A DNA stretch of 5,619 nucleotides, taken from the NCBI GenBank assembly GCA_947364965.1, contig CANAUU010000063.1, positions 1-5,619 on the forward strand, given 5' to 3'. This document shows, one piece after another, positions 1 through 5,619 of the stretch. The stretch's first letter is position 1. The number at the start of each line of letters is the position of its first letter. A program made the translations under genes and the position numbers. Source of the stretch: an uncultured Candidatus Saccharibacteria bacterium (lineage in GTDB: Bacteria > Patescibacteriota > Saccharimonadia > Saccharimonadales > Saccharimonadaceae). Below the pieces are notes generated by a model. That model made no database searches, had not been told where the DNA came from, and worked only from the letters and a program-made list of their open reading frames with translations.

Positions 1-130
1 CGGCTATTACTGGTCATCTACTCCGCTCTCTAACGGCACCCAGGCCTACAACCTCCTCTTTGGCGGCACCAGCAGCATCAATCCGTCCTCCAACAACTAT
101 CGGAACGGCGGCTTCTCCGTTCGCTGCCTT
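1..130 (+). repeat. DGR variable repeat (VR)
   Basis: This segment aligns without gaps to the reverse complement of 5490-5619. The seven differences are at 56, 57, 89, 90, 98, 107 and 108, where the template has A and the VR has C, T, T, C, T, G and G. The last 22 bases (109-130) are identical to the template and would act as the initiation-of-mutagenic-homology segment. Identity stops at 131, where the VR runs into the stop codon and the template runs into its 3' closing sequence. Many template adenines are unchanged in this copy, including all those in the first 55 bases. Confidence 0.93.
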
Positions 131-139
131 GCCCGCTAG
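1..139 (+). CDS. C-terminal end of a DGR target protein (C-type-lectin-like / FISUMP-type domain), 5' truncated by window edge
   Basis: The frame opened by base 2 reads 45 codons to a TAG stop at 137-139. The peptide starts GYYWSSTPLSNGTQAYNL and ends GFSVRCLAR. The order YWSS, then AYNL, then NP..NN, then GFSVRC is typical of the C-terminal part of Fibrobacter succinogenes major paralogous (FISUMP) domains, which have a C-type-lectin/FGE-like fold used as a DGR display scaffold. The segment is a variable repeat: it matches the template at 5490-5619 except in four codons, giving Leu19, Ser30, Tyr33 and Gly36 (numbered in this fragment) where the template has Asn. Such residues normally form the ligand-binding face, so a surface binding protein is inferred. 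The N-terminus, and any signal or anchor, is left of the window. It faces the template array convergently. The ligand is unknown; the domain-family name is less certain than the VR role. Confidence 0.85.
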   Translation, partial: GYYWSSTPLSNGTQAYNLLFGGTSSINPSSNNYRNGGFSVRCLAR

Positions 140-1679: not shown

Positions 1680-2094
1680 GGAGATCGGGCACAGCAAAGG
1701 CAGCGAACGGAGCGGCCGTTCTGCCGATTGTTGTTGTTGGACGGATTGATGTTGGTGGTGCCGTTGAAATAGAGGTTGTAGGCGTTGGTGCCGTCAGTGT
1801 TCGGGGTAGACGACCAGTAGTTGCCGTTGTTGCCGGCGTTTCTGAACAGGTTGCTGGTATTCTGATTGACGTAGCCACCCCTAACAATCGGCGAAGGGAT
1901 ACCTGATCTGTGCGCTATACCGAAAAAGAAGCCTTTTGGGGGAGACTTAAATCGCGACTTAAGTCTCTTGACGAGCCTGTGGCGTGTTTTATGATGCCGC
2001 GAGGAGGCTTCACGATCTCCTGAAATGACGCTGAGGTTGAGGCGGAGTTGTTTGCTCAGGCTTCAACTTGGGCGCCGTGAGTTGTTGGACTCAT
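1680..2094 (-). ncRNA. DGR template RNA unit A
   Basis: Read on the minus strand. The -10 TATAAT (2106-2101, preceded by TGC) predicts a start at A2094. The RNA opens with a hairpin UGAG-UCCAACAA-CUCA, then a leader to GGAGATCG (2020-2013), 74 nt from the start. A linker follows with the perfect stem 1942-1950/1959-1967. The 180-nt template (1876-1697) encodes, if read in the target frame, GYVNQNTSNLF...NYWSS...INPSNNNNRQNGRSVRCL. The unit ends CGATCTCC (1687-1680), complementary to GGAGATCG. Many N positions are AAC/AAT codons, as expected for adenine mutagenesis. There is no stop where the target gene has one, so it is a template and not a gene. It belongs to the main template class, with the 3' end TCCGTTCGCTGCCTT. 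Its 3' neighbour on this strand is the convergent small RNA 1. Confidence 0.85.
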
Positions 2095-2100
2095 ACTTTT

Positions 2101-2106
2101 ATTATA
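2101..2106 (-). promoter_or_regulatory. -10 box of template unit A
   Basis: TATAAT on the minus strand with TGC just upstream (extended -10). No good -35 is seen. The same arrangement recurs 6 bases before the predicted 5' end of the other complete units. Confidence 0.7.
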
Positions 2107-2170
2107 GCAGTTTCGGGGGTTGGGATTTCTGAAGAATTGGCACTGGTTGGTTTTTGGAAGTCGTTTGTGC

Positions 2171-2200
2171 TTGGAAGTGGATTGACAGGTGTGGTATAAT
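2171..2200 (+). promoter_or_regulatory. Promoter of small RNA 2 (copy 2 of the repeated promoter)
   Basis: TTGGAA (2171-2176), an 18-base spacer and TATAAT (2195-2200) with upstream TG. It is nearly identical to the promoter at 1120-1149, including the internal TTGACA block and the TGTGC before the -35. It diverges from the promoter of template unit A. Predicted start A2207. Confidence 0.75.
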
Positions 2201-2206
2201 GAAACT

Positions 2207-2257
2207 ATTGAGGGCAGGACCGGAACTGGAATGTACCGGACACCGCCCTCTTTTTTT
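2207..2257 (+). ncRNA. Small RNA 2 with intrinsic terminator (twin of 1575-1622)
   Basis: The predicted transcript starts AUUGAGGGC, as in small RNA 1. The outer stem is GAGGGC (2210-2215) with GCCCTC (2245-2250), followed by seven T residues (2251-2257). The interior differs from the twin but still has two CCGG blocks (in 2220-2240) that can pair. It uses the toxin-like gene's promoter sequence, whereas the twin uses another, so promoter and RNA body have been shuffled. An overlapping 63-codon frame beginning in the -10 box is not credible, because its ATG lies upstream of the transcription start. Confidence 0.7.
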
Positions 2258-2387
2258 GTTAGCATATTACGAGTTGGACCTGAGACTCTTCGTTAACTGG
2301 TTCAGGCATATTATGGACTGTGGAAAACTTGATGATAAAAAGTTTGAAAAAGTCTTGAAAAAACTATTGCTTTTATACAACTTATGC
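2258..2387. other. AT-rich spacer without a gene
   Basis: No credible reading frame. The right part is A/T-rich and holds several TTGAAA-like hexamers (2344, 2355) that may serve as upstream promoter elements for the next item. Confidence 0.4.
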
Positions 2388-2473
2388 TAAAATGAGAGTG
2401 GGTAGTTTGAACGAAAGTTTAGATTATCCAGGAGATAGTTGAGTCCCGTGCGCTTGTCGTGCGGGGCTCTCTT
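2388..2473 (+). ncRNA. Possible third small RNA: extended -10 followed by a long hairpin
   Basis: TGC-TAAAAT (-10 at 2388-2393) is a plausible extended -10. About 48 bases after it a 12-bp stem pairs 2441-2452 with 2458-2469, including G-U pairs, and is followed by TCTT. GAGAG (2394-2398) could also pair with CTCTC (2467-2471), echoing the outer stem of small RNAs 1 and 2. The T-run is poor and no clear -35 exists, so this is a weaker call than the two twins. Confidence 0.4.
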
Positions 2474-2564
2474 ATGAGTATGAATTCTGTGTTGGAAGCT
2501 TAAGGGGTGGAGTGGGGGTTTATTTGGGTATTGTTTTGCTGCTTTGTTTTATTGCTTTGGAGTA

Positions 2565-2958
2565 GGAGATCGGGCACAGCAAAGGCAGCGAACGGAGAAG
2601 CCGTTCTGCCGATTGTTGTTGTTGGACGGATTGATATTGCCGGTGCTGTTGAAGTTGAGGTTGTAGGCGTTGCTGCCGTTAGAGTTTGGAGTAGACGACC
2701 AGTAGTTGCCGTTGTTGCCGGCGTTGGCGAACAGGTTGCTGGTACTCTGATTGACGTTGCCGCCCGTCTACCAAATGACATATTAAGGAACTTTGACAGA
2801 AGTTGCTTCAGTTTCCCCTAATCGTAATTATGAGAATAGCTAGTCTAAAGCGGTTTTGTTGTTGGCTTTAGAGAACTTCACGATCTCCAGTTTGGCAGGT
2901 TGCCGAGAACGGACTTGCGTCAGGCTCTGGGCGCGCGGCCGTGAGTGTTTAGGCTCAT
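2565..2958 (-). ncRNA. DGR template RNA unit B
   Basis: Minus strand. -10 TATAAT (2970-2965), predicted start A2958, 5' hairpin UGAG-CCUAAACA-CUCA, GGAGATCG at 2888-2881 (70 nt from the start). The linker has a CTAAAGC/GCTTTAG stem (2845-2851/2865-2871). The template is 2761-2582 (180 nt) and the closing CGATCTCC is 2572-2565. In the target frame the template reads GNVNQSTSNLFANAG, NYWSSTPNSNGSNAYNLNF and NINPSNNNNRQNGFSVRCL. Its leader is close to that of unit E (shared block around 2897-2943 and 4240-4291), although the templates differ. This is the main template class. No terminator is visible after CGATCTCC. Confidence 0.85.
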
Positions 2959-2964
2959 GAATAT

Positions 2965-2970
2965 ATTATA
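2965..2970 (-). promoter_or_regulatory. -10 box of template unit B
   Basis: TATAAT on the minus strand inside an AT-rich run. Unlike most other units it lacks the upstream TG. It lies 6 bases before the predicted start A2958. Confidence 0.6.
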
Positions 2971-3013
2971 TATGTTTTTTAGTGATATGCGGTTTATGAT
3001 AATATTTGGTTTT

Positions 3014-3435
3014 GGAGATCGGGCACAGCAAAGGCAGCGAACGGAGTTGCCGTTGTACCGATTGTTGTTGTTGGACGGATTGATGTTGGTGGTGCCGTTG
3101 AAGTTGAGGTTGTAGGCGTTGGTGCCGCCAGAGTGTGGAGTAGATGACCAATAACGACCGTTGTCGCCGGCGTTGGCGAACAGGTTGCTGGTATTCTGAT
3201 TGACGTAGCCACCCCTAACAAAACCGCTAAACCTGTGCTTCAACTATGTGCCGATGCTGATAAACAGCATAAGAAGACGCTTGACGAGATTTTTGCCATA
3301 GCAAAAATGGCTGCTAGTCTGTAGAACTTAATTGGGGTTCTTTGAGAGGTCTTCACGATCTCCTAGAAAAGAACTGGGCGTGGCTGGAGGGTTCCTCAAA
3401 GCGGCGCTTCGTATCTTGTGGGGTGTTAGGCCCAT
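3014..3435 (-). ncRNA. DGR template RNA unit C
   Basis: Minus strand. -10 TATAAT (3447-3442, after TGT), predicted start A3435, and a 5' hairpin UGGG-CCUAACA-CCCCA in which the stem pairs have changed together relative to UGAG/CUCA of other units. GGAGATCG is at 3363-3356 (72 nt from the start). The linker carries two perfect stems: 3254-3259/3265-3270 and 3289-3296/3301-3308. The template is 3210-3031 (180 nt), read in the target frame as GYVNQNTSNLFANAG, RYWSSTPHSGG and NINPSNNNNRYNGNSVRCL. Closing CGATCTCC is 3021-3014. A frame of 107 codons covers the template, but it begins at TTG inside the linker and runs through the closing sequence into unit B's promoter, so it is not a gene. Confidence 0.85.
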
Positions 3436-3441
3436 GAAGTA

Positions 3442-3447
3442 ATTATA
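3442..3447 (-). promoter_or_regulatory. -10 box of template unit C
   Basis: TATAAT on the minus strand with TGT just upstream (extended -10), 6 bases before A3435. Confidence 0.7.
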
Positions 3448-3484
3448 ACATTAGAGGATTGGAAAGGATTGATTACGTAGTGAA

Positions 3485-3886
3485 GGAGATCGGGCACAGC
3501 AAAGGCAGCGAACGGAGAGGCCGTTGTACCGATTGTTGTTGTTGGACGGATTGATGCCGGTGGTGTCCCAGAAATTGAGGTTGTAGGCGTTGCTGCCGTT
3601 AGAGTTTGGAGTAGACGACCAGTAGTTGCCGTTGCGGCCGGCGTTGTTGAACAGGTAGGTGGTATTCTGATCGACGTTGCCGCCCCTCTTGGTATAGGGC
3701 GAGAACGTGAGAAAGAAATAGAAGTTATTTGAGTTTTATTACAGGCCGTGACCTATAATAAGGGCTTGCCAAGACGAGTTTATTTAGATGGTCGAGGAAA
3801 CTTCACGATCTCCAGAAATGGTGAGTCGGTCAAGGCGTCGAGATTATCGGGGCGTTGACCTGCTAACCGTGAGTTGTTAGGCTCAT
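3485..3886 (-). ncRNA. DGR template RNA unit D
   Basis: Minus strand. -10 TATAAT (3898-3893, after TGC), predicted start A3886, 5' hairpin UGAG-CCUAACAA-CUCA, GGAGATCG at 3813-3806 (73 nt from the start). The leader contains a 31-base block (3829-3859) identical to one in unit G (5361-5391), whose ends GTCAA/TTGAC can pair. The template is 3681-3502 (180 nt), read as GNVDQNTTYLFNNAGRNGNYW, NAYNLNFWDTT and GINPSNNNNRYNGLSVRCL. It departs most from the other class members in the NFWDTT segment, so a different target gene is likely. Closing CGATCTCC is 3492-3485. The linker is AT-rich with only a weak stem (3716-3720/3726-3730). Confidence 0.85.
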
Positions 3887-3892
3887 GGAGAT

Positions 3893-3898
3893 ATTATA
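3893..3898 (-). promoter_or_regulatory. -10 box of template unit D
   Basis: TATAAT on the minus strand, after TGC (extended -10), 6 bases before A3886. Confidence 0.7.
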
Positions 3899-3916
3899 GC
3901 ATAGTTTTACAGGATA

Positions 3917-4304
3917 GGAGATCGGGCACAGCAAAGGCAGCGAACGGAGCGACCGTTGTTCCGATTGTTGCTGTTGGACGGATTGATGGTGCTGGCGCCG
4001 TTGAAGTTGAGGTTGTAGGCGTTGGTGCCGTTAGAGTGAGGAGTAGAGGACCAGTAGTTGCCGTTGTTGCCGGCGTTGGCGAACAGGTTGCTGGTTCTCT
4101 GGTCGACGTAGCCGCCCCTGAATACCAAGGGTTGTTCGGTCAAGAAGCCACTGGATATGATATAAGTCATGACTTATATTTTTTACTAGCCTGTAGCGTG
4201 TATTGGATAGCTGCGAGGGGGCTTCACGATCTCCTTTTTGACAGGTTGCCGAGAGCGGACTTATGTCAGGCTCTGGGCGCATGGTCGTGAGTTGTTAAGC
4301 TCAT
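3917..4304 (-). ncRNA. DGR template RNA unit E
   Basis: Minus strand. -10 TATAAT (4316-4311, after TGC), predicted start A4304, 5' hairpin UGAG-CUUAACAA-CUCA, GGAGATCG at 4234-4227 (70 nt from the start). The leader is like that of unit B. The linker holds a perfect 20-base palindrome at 4160-4179. The template is 4113-3934 (180 nt), read in the target frame as GYVDQRTSNLFANAG, NYWSSTPHSNG and TINPSNSNNRNNGRSVRCL. Closing CGATCTCC is 3924-3917. An open plus-strand frame across the template (3874-4290), giving Val/Gly-rich peptide, is an antisense shadow that recurs in other units. Confidence 0.85.
4160..4179. repeat. Perfect 20-base palindrome in the linker of unit E
   Basis: ATATAAGTCATGACTTATAT is fully self-complementary. 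It sits where other units carry hairpins of unrelated sequence (A 1942-1967, B 2845-2871, C 3254-3308), suggesting that a stem here matters more than its sequence. As DNA it could also be a dimeric regulator's site. Confidence 0.5.
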
Positions 4305-4310
4305 AAAGAT

Positions 4311-4316
4311 ATTATA
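4311..4316 (-). promoter_or_regulatory. -10 box of template unit E
   Basis: TATAAT on the minus strand after TGC (extended -10), 6 bases before A4304. Confidence 0.7.
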
Positions 4317-4341
4317 GCATTATGTCGGTCTTGTTCGTGCT

Positions 4342-4378
4342 TGTGCTTGGAAGTGAGTTGACGGATGTGAGGATATAT
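4342..4378 (+). promoter_or_regulatory. Decayed copy 3 of the repeated promoter
   Basis: TGTGCTTGGAAGTG (4342-4355), then TTGACGGATGTGA (4358-4370) and GATATAT (4372-4378), match the promoters at 1120-1149 and 2171-2200. The -10 is disturbed (GGATATAT for TATAAT). No small RNA body like those at 1575 or 2207 follows, so this looks like a remnant. Confidence 0.5.
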
Positions 4379-4400
4379 CTGGGCTCGTATCTAGGCTTGG

Positions 4401-4442
4401 AATAAAAATATCCCCTGACATTATGATTGCTCATAACCGGGG
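4401..4442 (-). terminator. Intrinsic terminator downstream of template unit F
   Basis: On the minus strand, CCCC (4442-4439) and TTATGA (4436-4431) pair with TCATAA (4426-4421) and GGGG (4415-4412) around a GCAA loop, followed by ATATTTTTATT. It lies about 75 bases after the closing CGATCTCC of unit F, separating that unit from unit E. Clear terminators of this kind are not seen between units B and C, C and D, or D and E. Confidence 0.55.
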
Positions 4443-4516
4443 GTGGCGGGGGGTGTCCCGAATATATTTACAGTATAGCACGGATGGGTATTTTTGACAA
4501 GATTTTATAATCTGGA

Positions 4517-4941
4517 GGAGATCGGGCACAGCGATGGGCACGAACGGAGTTGCCGTTGTACCGATAGGGATTATTGGAAGGATTGATACTGCCGGTTCCG
4601 CTAAAGTTGAGGCCATAGGCATCGACGCCATTAGAGATGGGCGTAGAAGACCAGTAGTTGCCGTTGTTGCCGGCGTTGTTGAACAGGTTGTTGGTATTCT
4701 GACTGACGATACTATGAAATAACTGAGGATGAGTGTTTGGTTTGGGTGTCGTAGCTGGGGCTGTGCCTATATGAGAAATCATTTGAGGTGCTGGCGGGTC
4801 GTGACTCGCAAGAATGACTAATCTTGAACGCTTGTTTTGCAGCGATTCGAGAAGATTCCACGATCTCCTAGAGAAAGTTTTGGCAGGGCTGGAGATTGAA
4901 CTCAGAGCGGTGCCGAGACTTTATGGAGGATTATCTCCACA
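4517..4941 (-). ncRNA. DGR template RNA unit F (second template class)
   Basis: Minus strand. -10 TATAAT (4953-4948), predicted start near 4941, 5' hairpin UGGAG-AUAAUC-CUCCA with compensated pairs, GGAGATCG at 4868-4861 (about 73 nt from the start). The template is 4713-4534 (180 nt), read in the target frame as VSQNTNNLFNNAGNNGNYW, NGVDAYGLNFSGT and SINPSNNPYRYNGNSVRAHR. Its 3' end, TCCGTTCGTGCCCATCGC, differs from the CGCTGCCTT end of the main class. Because the DGR needs a match at this end, it should serve a different target family ending in SVRAHR-like residues. Closing CGATCTCC is 4524-4517, with a terminator further on at 4401-4442. Confidence 0.82.
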
Positions 4942-4947
4942 GGGATT

Positions 4948-4953
4948 ATTATA
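4948..4953 (-). promoter_or_regulatory. -10 box of template unit F
   Basis: TATAAT on the minus strand in an AT-rich stretch, without an upstream TG. It lies 6-7 bases before the predicted start near 4941. Confidence 0.6.
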
Positions 4954-5062
4954 ATATACCTAGGTTGGAATTAGGTGTAAACTGTGGTGCTTTGATGAGG
5001 GTGGGTATGATGATATTTCTGCTGAAATTCAATTAGTTTTCTAGCTGCCTTGAACTAGAAAA

Positions 5063-5417
5063 GGAGATCGGGCACCAAAAGAGGCGAAGAAACGGGGAGC
5101 CGGTAGGCCGATTGTTGTTGTTGGACGGATTGATGTTGTTGGTGTTGTTGAAGTTGAGACGGGAAGGGTCGGGGATGGGCCAGGGAGAGGTTGCTTGTGC
5201 TTCATGAGAGCCGGGGCTTTTATGAAATGGCTAGCCTGGAGCTACCTTACGGTTGGTTCGCTAGCGCGTAGCGTGACGATTATGATGATTTATAATGTCG
5301 CGTTTGGCGCTGGCGATGGTAGCTGGAGGGAACCTCACGATCTCCTAAATGGGCGTTGCCGTCAAGGCGTCGAGATTATCGGGGCGTTGACTTTTACGCC
5401 ATGGGGTTTAGTCCCAC
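5063..5417 (-). ncRNA. DGR template RNA unit G (third, most divergent template class)
   Basis: Minus strand. -10 TATAAT (5429-5424, after TGT), predicted start G5417, 5' hairpin UGGG-ACUAAAC-CCCA, and a leader with the 31-base block shared with unit D (5361-5391). GGAGATCG is at 5345-5338 (72 nt from the start) and closing CGATCTCC at 5070-5063. The RNA frame is intact, but the template differs: similarity to other units covers only about 5080-5158. In the target frame it reads DPSRLNFNNTNNINPSNNNN and then RPTGSPFLRLF, with no YWSS segment. The run of AAC codons is the densest in the window. The unlike 3' end points to a target family not represented at the left edge. It is also the shortest complete unit (355 nt). 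Confidence 0.75.
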
Positions 5418-5423
5418 GGGCTT

Positions 5424-5429
5424 ATTATA
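5424..5429 (-). promoter_or_regulatory. -10 box of template unit G
   Basis: TATAAT on the minus strand with TGT upstream (extended -10), 6 bases before G5417. Confidence 0.7.
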
Positions 5430-5472
5430 ACATCATTGGATTGAGTGTGGGTTTTGAGGTTGTGGTTTTGGA

Positions 5473-5619
5473 GGAGATCGGGCACAGCAAAGGCAGCGAA
5501 CGGAGAAGCCGTTGTTCCGATTGTTGTTGTTGGACGGATTGATGCTGCTGGTGCCGCCAAAGTTGAGGTTGTAGGCCTGGGTGCCGTTAGAGAGCGGAGT
5601 AGATGACCAGTAATAGCCG
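5473..5619 (-). ncRNA. DGR template RNA unit H, 5' part cut by window edge
   Basis: Only the 3' part is present: template bases 5619-5490 and the closing CGATCTCC (5480-5473). It has the same spacing and the same main-class 3' end as units A-E. It is the partner of the VR at the left edge. Its leader, the GGAGATCG partner and its promoter must lie right of 5619. Confidence 0.85.
5490..5619 (-). repeat. DGR template repeat (TR) matching the VR at 1-130
   Basis: The reverse complement matches 1-130 at 123 of 130 positions. TR adenines at 5564, 5563, 5531, 5530, 5522, 5513 and 5512 (T on the plus strand) correspond to C, T, T, C, T, G and G in the VR. Read in the target frame it gives NLNFGG and then NPSNNNNRNNGFSVRCL. 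None of the other templates in the window matches the VR this closely (for example, NGTQAYNL and GGTSSINPS occur only here and in the VR). Confidence 0.93.

Follow-up and report, generated by a model that had tools for sequence, protein, structure and literature searches.

A tandem array of probable template-RNA genes of a diversity-generating retroelement in a Saccharibacteria genome

Contig C63 of a Candidatus Saccharibacteria genome (0.89 Mb in 101 contigs, 93.7% complete) was analyzed over its full length of 5,619 bp, which is referred to here as the window. Its minus strand carries seven complete units (A to G) and one unit cut by the contig end (H), which probably serve one diversity-generating retroelement (DGR) as an array of template-RNA genes, each likely with its own promoter and used in trans by a single reverse transcriptase (RT) encoded on another contig. 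Judged by its sequence, the system is a multi-template DGR, with predicted free-standing template RNA genes that carry a conserved scaffold upstream of the template. The helices of the scaffold (P1 to P4) are described below the list of features.

1 to 139, plus strand: variable repeat, comprising the final 45 codons and the stop of a target gene that is truncated at the contig start; partnered with unit H (from template comparison and homology to the C terminus of a target on contig C1)
1157 to 1552, plus strand: small open reading frame (ORF) with a CdiA_C domain (PF18451; E value, 6.8e-12 on 1160 to 1549), convergent with the array
1680 to 2106, minus strand: unit A, with -10 box (2106 to 2101), P1/P2 leader, P3 5' arm (2020 to 2013), P4, template, and P3 3' arm (1687 to 1680)
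2565 to 2970, minus strand: unit B, with P3 arms at 2888 to 2881 and 2572 to 2565
3014 to 3447, minus strand: unit C, with P3 arms at 3363 to 3356 and 3021 to 3014
3485 to 3898, minus strand: unit D, with P3 arms at 3813 to 3806 and 3492 to 3485
3917 to 4316, minus strand: unit E, with P3 arms at 4234 to 4227 and 3924 to 3917; the -10 box of D is only 18 nt away
4517 to 4953, minus strand: unit F, with P3 arms at 4868 to 4861 and 4524 to 4517; 3' end of the template altered
5063 to 5429, minus strand: unit G, with P3 arms at 5345 to 5338 and 5070 to 5063; short template with altered 3' end, possibly decayed
5473 to 5619, minus strand: unit H, of which only the template portion and the P3 3' arm lie before the contig end; partnered with the repeat at 1 to 139

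The motif GGAGATCG was counted 15 times in the window, compared to 0.15 expected, and none of 200 shuffles reached this count. It provides the 5' arm at seven minus-strand sites (from 2020, 2888, 3363, 3813, 4234, 4868, and 5345), while CGATCTCC lies at the template ends at eight sites (1680, 2565, 3014, 3485, 3917, 4517, 5063, and 5473). The sequence TATAAT was found 82 to 86 nt ahead of GGAGATCG in all seven complete units of the window, and a template core of 77 nt is present in eight copies. These sites confirm the row of seven complete units and one partial unit proposed in a preliminary description of this DNA, although unit H, which is indeed incomplete, is so because the contig ends within it. 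The complete units span 361 to 503 nt, measured from just behind the -10 box, and differ in their linkers and spacers.

Further units are present on contig C68, which carries complete units I and J plus a leader, K. A pattern search of the genome with GTGCCCGATCTCC, allowing one mismatch, retrieved the eight unit ends of the window and two on C68; a single-mismatch site at 316 to 328 of the window is not a template unit. The leader without a template (K) and the template without a leader (H) may be one unit, and thus the genome total is ten or eleven. Should C68 adjoin the window via K/H, the units would make up one array in the order I, J, K/H, and G to A. The end of C68 (L014, 5052 to 5070) resembles what we take to be an Illumina adapter, presumably an assembly flaw. 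Leader length, which had been described as fixed, is 82 to 86 nt in 9 of 10 leaders; the exception is unit J (192 nt; L014, 4401 to 4593), in which an insert of ∼100 nt lies within P2 and the common outline still folds. No Rfam family matched the window at gathering thresholds.

The complete units share a common architecture: a -10-like box is followed by a hairpin at the 5' end (P1) and another helix (P2), and a long-range helix around the template (P3) is accompanied by an inner one (P4). In an alignment of 18 leaders from three genomes, from which J was excluded for its long insert, P1 was paired in 100% of cells, with both-sided changes at three of its four pairs. The P2 helices were paired in 88% and 81% of cells, and a proposed last inner helix in only 47%. 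For the entire leader structure, 84% of cells were paired, compared to 67% in shuffles, and the covariation score was 0.617, compared to 0.283; neither value was reached by any of 500 shuffles. P3 consists of GGAGATCG paired with CGATCTCC in the present genome (G000) and in G014 and G049, of AAAGATCG paired with CGATCTTT in all 11 units of G040, where the changes are compensatory at two positions, and of GGAAGATCG paired with CGATCTTCC in G013. P4 was able to form in all 19 units examined, which come from four genomes and have nine different 5' arms, and its 3' arm was 77 to 91 nt away in 17 of the 19; this consistent place of the arm, together with the shuffle comparison, argues against chance. 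Thus, across units and species, compensatory changes preserve the predicted scaffold helices. That the units are exons of one protein gene seems unlikely in view of these covarying noncoding scaffolds.

On the 3' side, where structure was not formally searched for, the flanks of the G014 units looked unrelated by eye. Of seven template ends, four are only 18, 37, 43, and 43 nt from the following -10 box, so that, barring read-through, there is little room for a 3' spacer like that of the BPP-1 DGR. If transcription does read through, the leader of the next unit might serve as the 3' structure.

Similar units were found in related genomes. In the following model-search counts the present genome is included. 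Model R1 matched 4 of 118 genomes of the same genus (G000, G014, G049, and, weakly, G038), and model R2 matched 3 of 392 genomes of the order under strict filters and 6 of 15 chosen genomes. With R2 on 16 of 18 RT loci, units were detected in two; a looser pattern on 13 of them gave units in three. G014 has eight units dispersed over seven contigs, and G040, read almost whole (805 kb), has 11 dispersed over eight contigs and one RT match. R2 also identified five units in G024 (with the closing stem in three) and one each in G155 and G042. A unit lies directly behind the RT in L267 (on a G155 contig), L268, L271, and G042. The existence of RT-linked, multiplied and dispersed, and clustered states suggests that the earlier arrangement was probably one unit linked to the RT, with multiplication and dispersal in some species and clustering in the genome studied here. 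A scan of viral contigs (93 stretches) gave one match each in the 80 listed, which we read as chance.

One DGR-type RT was found in the genome, on contig C5, which excludes the objection that the genome might lack one. Its best match among solved structures was the BPP-1 DGR RT (8ub7; E value, 1.5e-25), with the next sequence at 4e-6 and the motifs aligned. Assignment to the retron-type RTs was rejected because the Retron St85 model gave only 33.8 bits against a cutoff of 235 and the best structure was a DGR RT. In PADLOC the protein matched many generic and defense RT models (74 families; best, 98.9 bits), which is read as general RT likeness. The ORF adjoining the RT has a C-terminal part predicted to adopt the Avd fold, the four-helix accessory type. 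The genome also holds 22 homologous target genes or fragments, 21 of which have a readable variable repeat. The targets form a family of about twenty probably secreted proteins, the C terminus of which possibly has a C-lectin fold. The identification of the units as DGR templates is thus sustained by a conserved, covarying scaffold, a DGR-type RT, a predicted Avd-fold partner, and some 20 homologous targets.

The relation of templates to targets is clearest for unit H. Between H and the variable repeat at 1 to 139, mismatches occur at 7 of the 31 template adenines and at none of the 98 other template positions (Fisher P = 2.6e-5), so that all seven fall on template adenines. In most DGRs, at least 75% of the mismatches between template repeat (TR) and variable repeat (VR) are at template adenines, according to one report (PMC8144416), and the pattern of differences between H and its partner, as read from the two sequences, is a DGR signature. 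Both ends of the contig break at the identical template position, as expected if H and the repeat share sequence beyond it. AAY codons make up 13 to 19 of 52 codons in seven full-length templates and 9 of 35 in H (G and J could not be scored), compared to 0 to 6 of 48 in 20 variable repeats and 6 of 40 in the repeat of the window. Templates and targets have edges in common (5', GGGGYGGC in most templates; 3', CTCCGTTCGCTGCC), and the 3' ends of variable repeats and templates differ in sequence, a difference that may be of the IMH/IMH* (initiation of mutagenic homing) type.

The templates differ from each other in their middle. Differences among templates are enriched at consensus adenines in G000 (51/357 versus 53/796; seven templates) and in G014 (51/368 versus 51/887; eight templates). 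The templates themselves may have been rewritten, or these positions may be less constrained. In a mosaic test, the repeat of the window was fitted better by templates of its own genome than by those of the other species (11.0 versus 19.0), and a repeat on contig C31 of G014 was fitted somewhat better by G014 templates than by G000 templates (33.5 versus 39.0). The RT-adjacent target of G014, which is cut by a contig end, agreed with the eight G014 templates at 96 to 104 of 110 to 120 non-adenine positions (0.81 to 0.89), compared to a best value of ∼0.7 over long stretches for the other nine readable variable repeats. The higher agreement suggests a more recent overwriting of the RT-adjacent target than of the others.

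Several observations weigh against the reading of the window as an array of DGR template genes. No clear -35 element was seen by eye ahead of the units, so that of the promoter previously assigned to each unit only the -10-like box stands as a sign. Two measures of covariation were weak: 35 of 500 shuffles reached the number of pairs with both-sided changes (11), and 410 of 500 reached the number of further pair types (21). The complete P4 count arises partly by construction, because each unit was scanned for the 3' arm; in five additional units with a closed P3 (three from G024 and one each from G155 and G042), a comparable scan located P4 in only three. The template ends of F, G, and J appeared altered or shortened by eye, and some units may be dead. 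The RT is absent from C63, and since joining its contig to that of the array is only plausible, the earlier placement of the units in one DGR locus is not upheld. The Avd match exceeds the caution line for helical bundles only modestly and was outscored by two bundles unrelated by name (16.6 and 15.7); Foldseek alone gave no match at an E value of <0.001 for either model.

A clean partner was found for only 1 of 10 templates (H) in the 93.7% complete assembly. Each of the other 20 variable repeats agreed with its best-scoring template at 0.586 to 0.882 of aligned non-adenine positions (59 to 88%); the highest value, for the repeat on C19, comes from only 17 positions, and the longest good case is the repeat on C53 with template C (118 of 140). 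Most repeats therefore differ from the templates at many non-adenine positions, as if they had not been recently overwritten, and template use by a target is indicated by sequence only for H with 1 to 139. In the mosaic test, the preference of the other eight G000 repeats was inconsistent, giving no clear support for mixing of templates. The statement that the units are exchangeable templates for several targets thus went too far in the form in which it was first made.

These data could fit a narrower form of the array reading, in which each template has a dedicated target and the array serves as storage. Unit H does have one perfect partner on its own contig, and the divergent middles of the templates would be consistent with separate targets. 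However, no second such partner was present among the 21 readable repeats of the genome, and in the near-complete assembly of G040 none of the 11 templates had a clean partner among 47 similar places (best non-adenine agreement over long stretches, 83%). One-to-one pairing consequently seems rather unlikely.

The lack of a clean partner for nine of ten templates, and the altered or short ends of F, G, and J, would also be explained if the array consisted mostly of dead copies, duplicated from a single-template DGR and decaying, with one or two units still working. This appears improbable, because P3 is intact and P4 formable in all nine complete units of the genome, covariation across species is strong, and eight and 11 scaffolds recur in G014 and G040. 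Alternatively, the units might be silent gene-conversion cassettes, pieces of targets stored and moved by homologous recombination without reverse transcription, for which the 22 homologous targets or fragments and the edges shared with the templates would provide the opportunity. It is very improbable that recombination accounts for a template and partner that differ only at template adenines or for an AAY richness confined to the templates; a covarying noncoding scaffold in each complete unit would be needless for a silent cassette, and a DGR-type RT is present. That the tandem array was built by assembly from repeats, as the short contigs, the adapter-like end of C68, and the break of both contig ends at one template position might suggest, is scarcely credible, given seven complete units with differing linkers and spacers on one contig and the many units, dispersed there, in assemblies of other species.

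If the units are an array of DGR template genes, each would be transcribed, likely from its own promoter, into an RNA in which P1, P2, and P4 could form a landing platform for the RT and Avd and P3 would present the template. Copying of the template by the RT and its partner would introduce errors at adenines, yielding cDNA that would replace the 3' ends of targets. Because templates and targets share end sequences, more than one template could serve more than one target, and we infer, with less certainty, that the array is a library of alternative, exchangeable templates for the target protein family. In its fullest form, in which any of ten or more interchangeable templates overwrites any of about 20 surface proteins, with new mutations, through one RT and Avd, this proposal is tentative and somewhat doubtful.

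DGRs mostly have one template and one or few targets, as far as the portion of the literature consulted describes them. Interchangeable templates would unite two functions in a single machine, cassette switching like that of antigenic variation and targeted hypermutation. A clade with free-standing, multiplied template genes, each with its own scaffold, would demonstrate that the templates of DGRs can function as modules in trans, and a covariance model would allow templates to be detected far from any RT. Such a clade would also suggest a way in which tiny Saccharibacteria, which presumably depend on a host, diversify many proteins by means of a single enzyme. Targeted-mutagenesis tools could naturally build on a compact 5' scaffold whose template can be exchanged.

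Dispersed stretches resembling variable repeats were observed in two of the related genomes. In G040 (L218 to L264), 70 RCLSTVL matches mark dispersed stretches of ∼230 nt, like stand-alone variable repeats, with near-constant edges GTGCGCAGCGG and CTCCGCTGCCTTAGTACTGTATTAGGTATGTAGGAG; most are ORFs of 65 to 137 amino acids, a few are shorter, and some are in convergent pairs. Similarity to the 11 templates also retrieved 47 places. These stretches look like variable repeats turned into dispersed mini-elements. In G013 (L166 to L183), a typed consensus gave 54 matches, of which one is an adenine-rich template beside the RT, one (at C5:13422) is part of a longer gene, and the remainder are short cassettes (YLTRGG...GFTV). 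Many of these share the 5' edge TCTCCTATA among the 26 matches listed, and some are near-identical at distant places.

Outside the units, the window contains the CdiA_C ORF. Among 20 loci searched, a relative lies immediately past the RT, in convergent orientation, in L266 and L267, and at a distance of ∼6 kb in L274. The proximity of these relatives to DGR RTs supports the view that the array end with the CdiA_C ORF is a DGR neighborhood; that the protein is a nuclease helping retrohoming is speculation. A 40-nt repeat with a TTGAC(A/G) box, perhaps a promoter, is present at 1104 to 1143, 2155 to 2194, and 4331 to 4370 (73 and 88% identity to the first copy). Strong hairpins at 1577 to 1622, 2210 to 2253, and 2392 to 2473, behind -10-like boxes and with T runs after the first two, are possibly small RNAs or attenuators.

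A partial search of the DGR literature found no tandem array of DGR template genes. Retron noncoding RNAs consist of msr and msd with an a1/a2 stem, and the comparison with retrons that had been drawn holds for the stem, an inverted repeat that closes around the reverse-transcribed part. The likeness ends there, because the RT here is of the DGR type and the template shows homology to a protein gene. Clustered regularly interspaced short palindromic repeat (CRISPR) guide arrays lie beside cas genes and have short identical repeats and spacers; the complete units here measure 361 to 503 nt and have a -10 box each. The BPP-1 DGR is similar in its DGR-type RT, Avd-fold partner, adenine-specific differences between template and target, and possible C-lectin end of the target. 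In BPP-1, a folded 3' spacer after the TR recruits the RT and Avd, according to one study (PMC12875486), whereas here there are ten or more units, and the conserved structure detected lies 5' of the template, which is enclosed by a stem. More than one TR per record has been described for Stenotrophomonas SKA14 (two TRs and six VRs) and Pseudomonas costantinii (six TRs, termed atypical, with few A-to-N changes), and 216 of 271 multi-VR DGRs had a single TR (PMC6642488); the accessible part of that description does not include tandem scaffolded units. In Treponema denticola and others, one TR serves many homologous targets away from the RT, and individuals carrying multiple Treponema TRs occur in metagenomes, as one report states (PMC4891356). 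The system described here resembles these Treponema-type DGRs in having targets remote from the RT and differs from them in that the templates are multiplied as RNA genes.

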